29,390 nt of DNA, from IMG/VR virus record IMGVR_UViG_3300048009_000719, positions 1 through 29,390 of that record; one strand, given 5' to 3'. The notes under the pieces are model-generated. The model was given only the letters and a program-made list of their open reading frames with translations, was not told the origin of the DNA and made no database searches. Below are positions 3,378 through 27,068 of this stretch, piece after piece (position 1 is the first letter of the stretch; each line of letters starts with the position of its first letter). The DNA comes from a virus. The position numbers and the translations under genes were made by a program.

Positions 3378-5649
3378 TTACTTCGTGAGCTTGATGAGTG
3401 TGCCTTGTTCTTACACCTGACACCTCAAAGGTTCTACCAAGAATTTTAAAACCATTATCCCGCCCTCTTAGCTCAATAGTATCCTGATAATAATTACCCT
3501 GTGCAAAAAGTGGAACCATTGTTTCAGTATCTAAGGAATCAAGTACTTCATTAATTTCCTCATCACCATCATCTACCCCTGTACTATATGTTTTGATTGA
3601 AACGGTAGCACTAAGGTCTTTTGTAAACTCTTCATCCACATATCCTTCGCGAGTGTAGGTGGTATAATCATATCTGTCAGATAAATGCAGGGCATAGGAT
3701 CGTAACATTTTTTCAGAGAACTTATCTCCAAAATCATTCTTACCATACTTAATTCTAGATATGTAATCCGCACCATCCCTACGAAATGACCTGTATGGCT
3801 GAGTGTTCCCAAAGATGTTTTCAACTGCGGGTCCATAGGAATATCTCATGATCTTAGAACCTGCAGATGTAAATTCCTTATCTTCTTCCCTAAGCAACTC
3901 ACTGTCTGTGTACATGTCAGACTCATTTTCTACCACATGTGTCGATAAAATGAACCATCGTGAACTTATTTTGGTAGTAGGAAATAAATTACAAGCAGAG
4001 GTCATTGCTGTATCGACCTGGGAAAGTGTTCCATATATCATATCATAACCAATAACACCCCAGTCAAGCTTCATGCCTGTTGAGTCATCTAGCTTAATTC
4101 CAACTGGTGCTATAACAAATATTTCCTGAGTCAGGTTATTTTCGCATGACCAGCAATATTCTATTTCGTCTCTAGTAATATTTCGCCAAAACTCTGGCCC
4201 CATCATAAAGGGCTGAAAAGGTGTAGGTTCTACATTTGCAGGTGTAACAATAAATACACCGTTAAAACCGACAAACATTTGCCTCTGTTCATCGATTGTA
4301 ATTATCGTGTTCCTGAAATCAGCAACTCGTTCTCCTCGATATTTTTCCTCAAAGAAATATGCACTTTGTGAATTACCTCGAGAAATTGCCAAATAACCAG
4401 TCTGTCTATACACAAGAAGCTTATCTGCCAGTTTTACCATTTTAAGTATTTGAGAACCATCTTCTGGAAAACTTAGCCCGTCTGCTGATTCCTTTTGGAT
4501 TTGTGCGTCTGCAGAAAAAGTATCTGGCTCTTTCAATAGAATTAGTTCTACAGGCTCCCCAACTTCTGGAGTGCTCGTCGATGTTTGGTCATCCCCTGAA
4601 GCTGTAAGTGAGCCTGCATTTGTCGCTGTTGCCGAAAGTGATATTTTTGTTTCACCTCCCACTATCGACAAAGAAGATACTACGCCATCATATACCACGT
4701 AATTTGGAGACGGTTGACCAGGTGTCGTATTGATAGACATCCTTATTGAATCACCAAGCTTTATTGTACCCGCCTCTATTGATGAATTTGAGTGATACGG
4801 GTTAAGACTATTAGTTCCGCTTTCTATCCCCCCTAGCTTATATGGTAGTTTTATTTCTGTTAATGTAGAACCAGTCATTCCTGACACTTCCCCGCTATAT
4901 ACCTGCCCAAAAAGGTATGGACTTGCTTTTGCTACACCAATGTTATCTGCGAGCCTCCATGCTGAATACTCTATTGAGTGTGGAGAGTTATAAGTAGGTG
5001 TGCTGAAGCTCTCATTCTCTGGCAAGCCGTATGGGTGTGAAGCATTCTGCATCCATTCCCTGAATGCATCAGAGTTTGACTCTTCATCAATGTATGTCAC
5101 GTCGCCTAACCATAATCTGCCATCGTACTCAGTAATTGTACCACACCTAATAATACCCCTTTCCCTTATGCCATAAATAGGATAAGCACATGACCATCCG
5201 TTTCTATAAATAAGCGGGAGGTCAGCACCATTATTCAGAATACAGAATCCGTCGATACTGACAGCCTCCCATCTTCGTGGCTGAACCACATGACTTGAAC
5301 TATCTAAGTACTGCAACCCTTGAGCAATAATCTCCCAGCTTTCCGTGGACTCATTTAGTCTATAGATTTTACTGCCAGAGGCAGCAATCAATACCTGCTT
5401 CTCACCTGAAAGAAACTGATACACAAGCCTGACAGGGTCATTTGTCCCAAGATTATCAATGTAGCTATTTAACTTTAATTTTTCCCAACCTTCTCGGCGA
5501 ACTTCCCCGTCTGTCTCTCTGCGAAAATTTACCTTCTCCACATAATTACTAGCACCTGCAGTATCACCAGAATTACTGCCTGTAATTAACTGACCACCCT
5601 CTGTTGCCATAACAGAGAAATGACGATAATTTAGTGACTTCTTTGCCAT
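3370..5649 (-). CDS. Tail nozzle / tail tubular protein B-like
   Basis: A 759-residue protein, close to the size of T7 gp12 (nozzle). It begins MAKKSLNYRHFSVMATEGGQ and is rich in beta-type sequence with many aromatic and Gly turns (for example RLVYQF, KIYRLN, GRLWLGDV), compatible with a propeller-like tail protein. It follows the adaptor-like and fibre genes, as expected in podoviruses. Its ATG overlaps the stop of the HxH fibre gene by one base (TGATG), indicating translational coupling. P22 gp10-type head-closure proteins are an alternative assignment. The call rests on length, order and composition, not on a recognised motif. Confidence 0.6.
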   Translation of the reverse strand: MAKKSLNYRHFSVMATEGGQLITGSNSGDTAGASNYVEKVNFRRETDGEVRREGWEKLKLNSYIDNLGTNDPVRLVYQFLSGEKQVLIAASGSKIYRLNESTESWEIIAQGLQYLDSSSHVVQPRRWEAVSIDGFCILNNGADLPLIYRNGWSCAYPIYGIRERGIIRCGTITEYDGRLWLGDVTYIDEESNSDAFREWMQNASHPYGLPENESFSTPTYNSPHSIEYSAWRLADNIGVAKASPYLFGQVYSGEVSGMTGSTLTEIKLPYKLGGIESGTNSLNPYHSNSSIEAGTIKLGDSIRMSINTTPGQPSPNYVVYDGVVSSLSIVGGETKISLSATATNAGSLTASGDDQTSTSTPEVGEPVELILLKEPDTFSADAQIQKESADGLSFPEDGSQILKMVKLADKLLVYRQTGYLAISRGNSQSAYFFEEKYRGERVADFRNTIITIDEQRQMFVGFNGVFIVTPANVEPTPFQPFMMGPEFWRNITRDEIEYCWSCENNLTQEIFVIAPVGIKLDDSTGMKLDWGVIGYDMIYGTLSQVDTAMTSACNLFPTTKISSRWFILSTHVVENESDMYTDSELLREEDKEFTSAGSKIMRYSYGPAVENIFGNTQPYRSFRRDGADYISRIKYGKNDFGDKFSEKMLRSYALHLSDRYDYTTYTREGYVDEEFTKDLSATVSIKTYSTGVDDGDEEINEVLDSLDTETMVPLFAQGNYYQDTIELRGRDNGFKILGRTFEVSGVRTRHTHQAHEVSA

Positions 5650-22706: not shown

Positions 22707-23142
22707 ATTTTGGATAAATTGCAGACCACCACGCTCAACTGGGCAGGCAACTAAAAAGGTTGGTGTGCGTAAGAATGGTAAGCCATTTAGTTACACAAGT
22801 GCTCGTGGGAAATCATTACACAATGAGTTTATGAGTCTGCTCATGCCATATGTTCCGCTCAAGGCATTAGATGGGCCACTATGTATGGAAGTAAGATATG
22901 CCCTGCCCTTTCTTAAGACAGAAAGAAAAGCAATCAGGGAAAAAGGATGGGTATATCACGATAAAAAGCCTGATGCAGATAATTTACTCAAAGTATTTCA
23001 GGATATCATGGAAAGATTAAATTTCTTTGAAAAAGGAGACTCACAATTAGTCGATGTTAGAATCATAAAAGTAAGATCAGAAAATCCAGGGATTGGAGTG
23101 AAACTTTACGCAACCCATGACCTAGAGGATTTTGATGTATGA
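22699..23142 (+). CDS. rusA: RusA-type Holliday junction resolvase
   Basis: From ATG 22699 (the in-frame TTG at 22696 is less likely) a 147-residue protein. The RusA signature is present: KKPDADNLLKVFQDIMERL with D92 and D94, then GDSQLVD with D114, matching the three metal-binding Asp of RusA (D70, D72, D91 in the E. coli protein). The N-terminus (RFWINCRPPRSTGQ) matches the family's opening strand. It resolves branched recombination intermediates before packaging. Neighbouring genes are recombination and replication functions. Confidence 0.88.
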   Translation: MYRFWINCRPPRSTGQATKKVGVRKNGKPFSYTSARGKSLHNEFMSLLMPYVPLKALDGPLCMEVRYALPFLKTERKAIREKGWVYHDKKPDADNLLKVFQDIMERLNFFEKGDSQLVDVRIIKVRSENPGIGVKLYATHDLEDFDV

Positions 23143-23696
23143 GAATTTGTATTACAATAGATGAAGATTCTTTAGCATTCGCTAGGCTTGAAAAGCTGGT
23201 GAGCGTAACAGGTATGAAGAGCAAGCAGGATGTCTTTTTGGCAGCCCTAGCTCAGTATCGTTTAGATATACAGGCTGAGGAGCCTAAGAAAAAAAGACGA
23301 GTCACAGCTACTAAGAAAGAAAAGCATCTTGGTGAAGGCTCACGACCAAAAGACATAAAAGAGGTAACCCAGTTTTTTAGACAAAGACAAGTACCTGAGC
23401 CTGTTGAGCCAAAAGCGAAAATCTTCTACGAACACTATCAGTCAAAAGGATGGCAACTACGCAGTGGTTCACCAATTAAGAACTGGGGATGCTGTCTGAC
23501 AACATTCCAACAGAACAATGCTGATTGGCGACCTGTTCAGACTGATAACACAACAAACCTGAAACTACAGGACTTTTTAAACTGGGTAAAAGACGAGCGT
23601 CCCTCTTGGTACGGCAAGCTAAGGGATGTGCAAAGCATAGATGATATAGATGGTTATTACATTCAAGAATACAAACAAAACATTGGAAAATTTTGA
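23139..23696 (+). CDS. Replisome organiser/helicase loader-like protein
   Basis: A 185-residue protein starting in an ATGA overlap with rusA. Residues 1-48 look like a small ribbon-helix-helix or dimerisation unit (CITIDEDSLAFARLEKLVSV). A basic linker (KKKRRVTATKKEKHL) follows. Residues ~75-125 (VTQFFRQRQVPEPVEPKAKI, FYEHYQSKGWQLRSGSPIKN, WGC) match the F-x-x-Y-x-x-x-G-W...K-x-W module found at the C-terminus of phage replication initiation/loader proteins. It sits directly before and overlaps the DnaB-like gene, supporting a role in helicase loading or origin recognition. Whether it binds the 11-bp iterons is untested. Confidence 0.6.
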   Translation: MRICITIDEDSLAFARLEKLVSVTGMKSKQDVFLAALAQYRLDIQAEEPKKKRRVTATKKEKHLGEGSRPKDIKEVTQFFRQRQVPEPVEPKAKIFYEHYQSKGWQLRSGSPIKNWGCCLTTFQQNNADWRPVQTDNTTNLKLQDFLNWVKDERPSWYGKLRDVQSIDDIDGYYIQEYKQNIGKF

Positions 23697-26087: not shown

Positions 26088-26238
26088 GGAGTATGATGGC
26101 TACGGGGAATGCTCTTGTGAGTATTTTACCTACATGATCGCGCCTAAATTAAAACTAGGAAAAAAACCATTTAAACAATGCAGACATTTAAGATCAGCGA
26201 AACGGGCGAAGGCTCAGAATTTACATATCCAAAAGTAA
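26005..26238 (+). CDS. Small SWIM zinc-finger protein
   Basis: From ATG 26005 (an in-frame GTG at 25966 would add 13 residues) a 77-residue protein. It carries the SWIM pattern C-x-C...C-x-H: C36-S-C38, then C59-R-H61, preceded by LVSLRNPMNVHLVDL. SWIM domains bind zinc and are found in proteins that contact DNA or protein partners, such as Rad51-associated and transposase-like proteins. It overlaps genes on both sides by tens of bases. It is a likely early regulatory or recombination accessory; function inferred. Confidence 0.65.
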   Translation: MTIQHLEAERFLLVSLRNPMNVHLVDLEEYDGYGECSCEYFTYMIAPKLKLGKKPFKQCRHLRSAKRAKAQNLHIQK

Positions 26239-26714
26239 TTGGACTATCTGGGGTCAAGGGTGTTGGGAAATCTACCTTTGCTCATCAGATGGGTGGGGAG
26301 GTAATTAGTTTAGCATCTCCGATAAAAAAGATGCTTGAGGTAATAGTACCGAAGATATTCATATATGAGGAGAAGGAAAGAGATATTCCTGGATTCCCTA
26401 AAGGGGTAAATGCTAGACTATTAATGCAGACCTTGGGGACAGAATGGGGACGAAACCATTATCCTGAAATATGGATAAACTTTGTTGAGGAGAAGATAGC
26501 AGAGGCTCAAGGACGATGGAAGGTCACTGACTGTTATTCTCAAAGGATAATTGTGGATGATATCCGATTTAAGAATGAGGCGGATATGATACGCAGAAAT
26601 AAGGGAGAAGTATGGAGATTAAAACGCGCGGGTGTGGAAACCAATGATTCCCATGTTTCTGAGGCTGGTGTTCCTGATGAATTGGTGGACAAGGAGATAC
26701 TGTTAGATGAGTAG
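26178..26714 (+). CDS. Deoxynucleoside monophosphate kinase
   Basis: A 178-residue P-loop protein. Walker A GVKGVGKS lies at 25-32 in VIGLSGVKGVGKSTFA. RLLMQTLGTEWGRNHYPEIW is the region typical of phage dNMP kinases (T4 gp1-like), and IIVDDIRFKNEADMIRR supplies the Asp and Arg seen in the family. It converts dNMPs to dNDPs for phage DNA synthesis. Its start lies within the SWIM gene (61-bp overlap), but no later ATG precedes the P-loop, so the start is kept. Confidence 0.82.
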   Translation: MQTFKISETGEGSEFTYPKVIGLSGVKGVGKSTFAHQMGGEVISLASPIKKMLEVIVPKIFIYEEKERDIPGFPKGVNARLLMQTLGTEWGRNHYPEIWINFVEEKIAEAQGRWKVTDCYSQRIIVDDIRFKNEADMIRRNKGEVWRLKRAGVETNDSHVSEAGVPDELVDKEILLDE

Positions 26715-26847
26715 AGTGCTGCTAATAATCATTATGTGTAGCGGGTGTGCTACAACAAAGCATGTATGCCCTGCTGAGGGACATGGACCATGTCCTAATC
26801 ATCCAGTAGACAGAACATGGTTTATATGGGACGAATTTCTTAAATAA
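26707..26847 (+). CDS. Small lipoprotein candidate, 46 aa
   Basis: A short frame whose ATG overlaps the end of the kinase gene by 8 bp. It reads MSRVLLIIIMCSGCATTK, then a Cys/Pro/His part (HVCPAEGHGPCPNHPV) and DRTWFIWDEFLK. The start looks like a lipoprotein signal with Cys14 as modification site (CSGC, with Cys rather than Leu at -3, a non-standard lipobox). Tiny phage lipoproteins often block superinfection by masking receptors (Llp, Cor types); that role is inference here. Confidence 0.55.
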   Translation: MSRVLLIIIMCSGCATTKHVCPAEGHGPCPNHPVDRTWFIWDEFLK

Positions 26848-26930
26848 AGGTAGGGAAAGGTACGGTGAGGCACGGTCAGGCAAGGACGGGAAGTGAAAGG
26901 AGCGGCGTGGAACGGACAGGCAAGGCAAGG
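26846..26930 (+). repeat. G-rich array with strict 5-bp period (NNNGG)17
   Basis: Seventeen consecutive pentamers, 16 of which end in GG (for example AAAGG, TACGG, TGAGG, CACGG, TCAGG, CAAGG); the exception is AAGTG at 26891-26895. Bases 1-3 vary. The run starts at the end of the lipoprotein gene and covers the beginning of the Cys-rich gene. GG pairs separated by three bases fit two-tetrad G-quadruplexes in DNA or RNA. Confidence 0.85.
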
Positions 26931-27068
26931 AAACCTATAAAGTTTGCATCGGAATGCGAGGAGTGCCCTGATTGTGGAGAACCTTGGTGTGATGAATGCG
27001 AAGAACATTACGCTGAGTGTGATTGTCCAGGGCCAGATTCTGAGACTGATATATCATGCAAAACCTGA
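26865..27068 (+). CDS. Cys-rich (zinc-ribbon-like) protein with R-x-G repeat start
   Basis: Starts at GTG 26865, inside the G-rich array. The array encodes a five-residue repeat R-x-G-x-x (RHGQA, RTGSE, RSGVE, RTGKA). Then come ECEECPDCGEPWCDECEEHY and AECDCPGPDSE, a C-x-x-C/H-rich domain of a type I recall from phage genomes, sometimes fused to methyltransferases. The start codon is uncertain because no ATG exists before the Cys region. Zinc binding is likely; role unknown. Confidence 0.55.
   Translation: MRHGQARTGSERSGVERTGKARKPIKFASECEECPDCGEPWCDECEEHYAECDCPGPDSETDISCKT

Follow-up and report, generated by a model that had tools for sequence, protein, structure and literature searches.

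The TRAP attenuation protein binds RNA at 11 NAG-NN sites. VIPR (Viral Interference Programmable Repeat), first described in 2026, has the same spacing: a phage RAMP protein, Vipr, binds RNAs made of 9–16 YNNGG units (PMC13142463, preprint). As reported there, Vipr holds the GGY triplet, base pairing with DNA is left to the NN letters and passes over one target base in each unit, and the system represses competing phages, with satellite phages and prophage regulators as most of the published targets (PMC13142463). The guide RNA (vrRNA) has a structured 3' tail, which contains a pseudoknot in the SUSP1 clade, and VIPR has been proposed as a forerunner of the CRISPR RAMP systems (PMC13142463).

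We analyzed a phage fragment of 29,390 bases (the window), whose genes include those for a terminase, a DnaB-like helicase, and a dNMP kinase, and which contains an array of pentamers close to those of VIPR. Like them, it has a GG triplet followed by two free letters, in 16 units (9–16 in the published RNAs); it is phage-borne and on the same strand as the genes, its NN letters are readable with a 1-nt skip, and a near-identical relative of the window (G003) encodes a SUSP1-like Vipr. It differs in that it is solitary, 12 kb from vipr in G003 and devoid of a pseudoknot tail, in that position 3 is A, C, or T rather than a pyrimidine, in that it overlaps the start of an ORF, and in its inferred target, a tandem octamer satellite. 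With TRAP, the common point is a protein multimer that binds an RNA in which a fixed triplet recurs at 5-nt intervals, but here the triplet is GGH, the arrays reach up to 140 units, the protein is a RAMP, and the NN letters carry information. The class 1 CRISPR RAMPs (Csm3/Cas7) share the fold of the Vipr family and a filament that shows guide letters in short periodic segments; in contrast, the VIPR side has neither cas genes nor CRISPR repeats, and its arrays have a period of 5 with two free letters, as opposed to 6 with five. A TRAP-like ring was rejected on account of the family of the partner protein (RAMP), and a CsrA sponge because CsrA requires GGA. The features of the region are the following:

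26178–26714, + strand: deoxynucleoside monophosphate kinase gene (phrog_139), the anchor gene for finding relatives
26707–26847, + strand: small ORF of 46 aa, lipoprotein-like by eye, stopping 1 nt 5' of the array
26849–26930, + strand: candidate VIPR-type guide array (vrRNA-like), 16 GGHNN units plus a final GG, proposed from register, shuffles, and octamer decoding
26849–26930, + strand: NN letters of the array, AG AA AC GA AC CA AA CG AG AA GC GT AC CA AA AA
26865–27068, + strand: ORF encoding a small Cys-rich protein (ECEECPDCGEPWCDECEEHYAECDCPGP), with the GTG within the array as the sole ATG/GTG/TTG start in frame
26894–26898, + strand: the only broken unit, TGAAA (position 1 is T instead of G), retained in the relatives L128 and L129
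26919–26930, + strand: GGCAAGGCAAGG at the 3' end of the array, as is typical of arrays of this kind, whose last two units show AA enrichment
26931–26990, + strand: 3' flank, without a GACTG..CAGTC-type pseudoknot tail and coding directly for the conserved Cys-rich protein

Read from 26846 to 26930, the array consists of 17 pentamers, of which 16 end in GG, AAGTG being the sole exception; this is exactly the count given in the original prediction, which had been made from the sequence. Read with GG first, it comprises 16 units (26849–26928) and the final GG, and 15 of the 16 full units carry GG. Position 3 of these 15 units is A (6), C (5), or T (4), hence GGH, a triplet related to GGY that the vipr locus of G003 also uses, and the NN letters are not conserved between units. 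A 17-fold GGNNN pattern with at most 3 mismatches had a single match in the window and none in 100 dinucleotide-preserving shuffles. The best independent score of any other spacing or dinucleotide in the window was 9/17; period 10 was not counted as independent because it is a harmonic of the same array. Ordinary RNA folding of the array was no better than that of shuffles (z = 0.11), so that the structure-based control that had been envisaged is not supported, and no evidence was found for a recombination hot spot, also proposed at that time. No promoter or terminator was found for the array.

To see how such arrays are distributed, we scanned 2.9 million contigs of viruses for twelve GGNNN units in a row, which gave at least 120 stretches; removal of perfect repeats and G-runs left at least 323 arrays in at least 103 contigs. 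Among the viral matches listed, the letters following GG-pyrimidine were random, and the median identity between units in the free columns was 0.258, versus 0.87 in a control scan with period 7, where none of 120 stretches was degenerate and only near-perfect repeats were found. In a bacterial scan, 9 of 118 matches were degenerate, most matches being perfect or near-perfect repeats. The random NN letters of the viral arrays, set against the near-perfect control and the few degenerate bacterial matches, indicate that neither slippage nor G-richness of the DNA accounts for the viral pattern. In the arrays among the matches listed (103 contigs), position 3 was a pyrimidine in 94% and A in only 4%. 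The last two units were enriched in AA (GGCAAGGCAAGG) in the 323 arrays among the matches listed, as they are in the window, and all arrays of a contig lay on a single strand in 78 of the 79 multi-array contigs among these matches. Rfam searches of 11 array loci gave no array family and only one match (int-alpA), and no tRNAs were found in the array loci.

Among the ORFs that these contigs contain outside the masked arrays, one protein family (about 195 residues) was conspicuous, its genes directly adjoining the arrays on the upstream or the downstream side. It was picked out from the array contigs before its match to the named Vipr. A profile search found it in 78 of the 103 array loci, and in 83 when whole records were used (contigs among the matches listed), versus none of 120 period-7 control loci (Fisher p ~2e-42 for 83/103). 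It was also present in 6 of the 9 degenerate bacterial loci and in 1 of the 109 others (118 in all). In Vipr loci, 98% of array clusters lay at most 1 kb from vipr. Nearly all members (52 of 53) matched phrog_4652, a family of unknown function, and the family profile matched PDB 36pp, 'SUSP1 Vipr', with E = 4.6e-42. An AlphaFold model of one member (pLDDT 94) had a Csm3/Cas7-like fold (E ≤ 0.001 for 86 PDB matches). Vipr, a RAMP-family protein, is found alongside arrays that have this spacing. The third proposal of the original prediction, a protein-binding array, had therefore taken the right branch, since Vipr binds such RNAs (PMC13142463).

The same profile search found no vipr in the 29-kb window. 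G003 (41.6 kb) is 98–99% identical to the window over the 8.6 kb that they share and extends past the right end of the window. Its vipr (22890–23474; phrog_4652, E = 6.3e-48; SUSP1-like, PDB 36pp, E = 1.8e-27) lies 9.5 kb further along than the right end of the window, and the array is not close to it, about 12 kb separating them in G003. Upstream of this vipr are arrays with a 39-nt tail, in four copies; the stem and the pseudoknot pair in 4/4 copies, and both bases are replaced in four of the pseudoknot pairs. No tail of this type follows the window array, and a tail-less array also precedes vipr itself in G003. As neither a tail nor a neighboring vipr was found where they were looked for, we call the window array a VIPR variant. 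Its broken unit has TG in place of GG, which is common in the vipr-locus arrays of G003, and its GG is cleaner (16/17) than in these arrays. A at position 3 is about as frequent in the G003 arrays as in the window array (6/15), versus 4% in the listed contigs. This shared usage ties the window array to the Vipr of this lineage rather than to the general GGY kind.

Further evidence came from the NN letters, which we read with 0–3 skipped target bases per unit. With a skip of 1, 28 of the 32 letters fitted one 8-mer, compared with 20.1 ± 1.3 in shuffles (z = 6.3), and none of 100,000 shuffles reached 28. With skips of 0, 2, or 3, the octamer periodicity of the window array was not significant. 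The octamer was first noticed through a match to a phage contig (L384, see below); the shuffle test uses the letters of the window alone. When natural variants are included, the address reads (AGWAACGM)n, with 29/32 letters fitting and 2 of the 3 misses in the last unit (conserved terminal CAA); its concrete form is AGAAACGC, as in (AGAAACGC)6. The two halves of the array agree at 12/16 NN letters but at 2/8 third bases (hand count), so that copying of array DNA does not account for the periodicity. The octamer was also found in the array of L128 (27/34 at skip 1; 1 of 20,000 shuffles), while it was gone from that of L129, which has a 3-unit duplication (z = 0.8). No z above 5 was observed in 4416 such tests on the other arrays among the matches listed, indicating that octamer periodicity is uncommon among guides. 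The window array thus provides an internal, database-free test of the VIPR rule, as only the 1-nt skip yields a clean tandem repeat, and it is chiefly from this octamer that we infer a guide function.

A search of viral contigs (viral_contigs) with an exact 20-nt seed (10 units) gave no target. Three 16-nt seeds matched 6, 8, and 18 viral contigs, with L384 among the 6; for the seed contigs other than L384, extension was no better than chance or the match was of low complexity. L384, a single uncultivated contig, is a phage contig with a terminase gene and octamer satellites in at least two places. Its best site matched 29 of 32 letters, among them the T in unit 12 at which the octamer is interrupted; at least 26 letters matched in 19 registers. 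The (AGWAACGM)n satellites of L384 occupy 2308–2596 and 5484–5628; after the first comes its reverse complement, which makes a large hairpin possible there. Two further contigs (L387 and L388; 25/32 and 24/32) were not counted as targets because the site lies on the antisense strand of a transketolase-like gene. A wide occurrence of the octamer in bacteria was not supported: three tandem copies were present in 0 of 841 genomes from three phyla, and the satellite is therefore not common in those phyla. A satellite search of phages and plasmids gave no match, though a low-complexity filter may mask it.

The original prediction had advised searching for the 5-bp period in relatives and metagenomes and had raised the possibility that the array was unique to one assembly. 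Besides the contigs of the viral scan, five contigs have a dNMP kinase at least 99% identical to that of the window, and all five carry the array. L128 and L129 have one extra pentamer at its 5' end, and L129 has three more, a 15-bp duplication (3 units) that preserves both registers; because the gains are whole pentamers, the register of the array is kept. Substitutions among the window, L128, and L129 fell in GG in 1 of 9 events, against 3.6 expected (p ~0.07, hand count).

The array had also been described as coding, with a five-residue R-x-G-x-x repeat, and as covering the GTG start of the Cys-rich gene. The reading is correct (peptide MRHGQARTGSERSGVERTGKAR...), and the GTG at 26865 is indeed inside the array; because it is the only ordinary in-frame start of that ORF in this lineage, the array may overlap translation. 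The coding role nevertheless appears incidental or secondary, since the Cys-rich homologues encoded by other phages (L403–L411) have neither the array nor the R-x-G peptide. Homologues from diverse phages begin at or shortly before K/R-P-I/V-K-F-A. The part encoded by 26931–27068 is a small Cys-rich phage protein with the pattern PDCGEPWC..C..HYA.C.CPGP, present in diverse phages, for which searches of Pfam and PHROG matched no family.

From sequence comparisons, the window array is probably a VIPR guide-RNA (vrRNA) array that stands alone in a phage operon. The + strand of the array would be transcribed, and a Vipr encoded elsewhere on the same phage would coat the RNA, one subunit per pentamer on GGH. 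The free NN letters would then pair with double-stranded DNA carrying an octamer satellite, such as that of L384, and the rival would be repressed by occupancy of its DNA, by analogy with the published mechanism (PMC13142463). Somewhat short of an even chance is the fuller proposal, that of a solitary, tail-less vrRNA in an operon away from vipr and directed against a tandem octamer satellite, such that one guide might load on many overlapping registers of the repeat of a rival phage. Against the reading as a guide array stand the lack of a vipr in the window and of a tail after the array, the loss of the octamer in L129, and the absence of a detected promoter or terminator. Most array clusters, moreover, adjoin vipr and that of the window does not, L384 is a single contig, and a match between tandem repeats, such as that to L384, arises more readily than one to random DNA. 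Guides apart from vipr, tail-less and aimed at minisatellites, are suggested here and are not described in the main text of PMC13142463. If the proposal is true, the unlinked arrays of other phages (L062 and L070 among them) would make up a second class of VIPR guides, one that is dispersed.

The absence of a tail, the in-frame fusion to a conserved ORF that has no other ordinary start, and the L129 duplication, which keeps both registers while the octamer is gone from the NN letters, would also agree with a captured or decaying vrRNA array, a former guide that lost its tail and neighbors and whose present role is to provide the Cys-rich gene with a leader and its N-terminal codons (R-x-G-x-x). 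We consider this unlikely, because the NN letters of the window still fit the octamer (29/32), its GG (16/17) is cleaner than in the vipr-locus arrays of G003, and GG took only 1 of 9 substitution events where 3.6 were expected (p ~0.07, by hand). It is quite improbable that the array is a Vipr-binding decoy or autoregulatory leader, which would control translation of the operon or titrate Vipr irrespective of NN: such an element needs no target-like letters, yet it is under the targeting rule alone that these yield a tandem octamer. The overlap with a translation start, the solitary arrays that L062 and L070 have between a stop codon and the ribosome site of the following gene, and the tail-less array preceding vipr in G003 are all in its favor.

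The original prediction had pointed to G2N3 quadruplexes, and this spacing could in principle give two-tier structures, acting as a control element or a recombination hot spot. We give this scarcely any credence, as a two-tier form could do without a strict 5-nt period and without a pyrimidine at position 3, and as it would leave the tie to Vipr unexplained; moreover, folding did not exceed that of shuffles, relatives keep the period through whole-unit indels, and no signs of recombination were found. The gain and loss of whole pentamers between relatives is what a functionless repeat generated by slippage would show. Slippage, however, yields repeats that are perfect or nearly so, such as those of the period-7 control and of most bacterial matches, whereas the viral arrays keep GG with random NN; this explanation, also contradicted by the octamer decoding under skip 1, seems to us extremely improbable.

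Arrays that stand alone, placed after a stop codon and before the ribosome site of the next gene, were also found in other phages (L062, L070). Four phage contigs of 56–105 kb (L023, L028, L062, and L091) had degenerate arrays but no detectable vipr; these arrays may be orphan guides or have a divergent partner protein. In L031 (6920–7171) and in Gordonia phage MakoManhole (L432, 2919–3100), arrays alternate with spacers resembling the 3' half of a tRNA (GGTTCGACTCC arm). ARAGORN found no tRNA in these spacers, which may be tRNA-like tails for processing. In five other contigs (L007, L015, L025, L034, and L050), arrays of about 12–18 units alternate with a repeated, hairpin-like spacer of 40–60 nt that is phage-specific. 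Long arrays with a 4-nt phase shift (GGCAGG) about every 11–13 units, giving a super-period of about 64 nt, were seen in L010, L013, L036, L044, L046, and L052, and are possibly the 'staggered' arrays of PMC13142463. Finally, the vipr match contains one TAG in both L378 (G029) and L379 (G023), which may reflect stop-codon recoding or merely the end of the gene.
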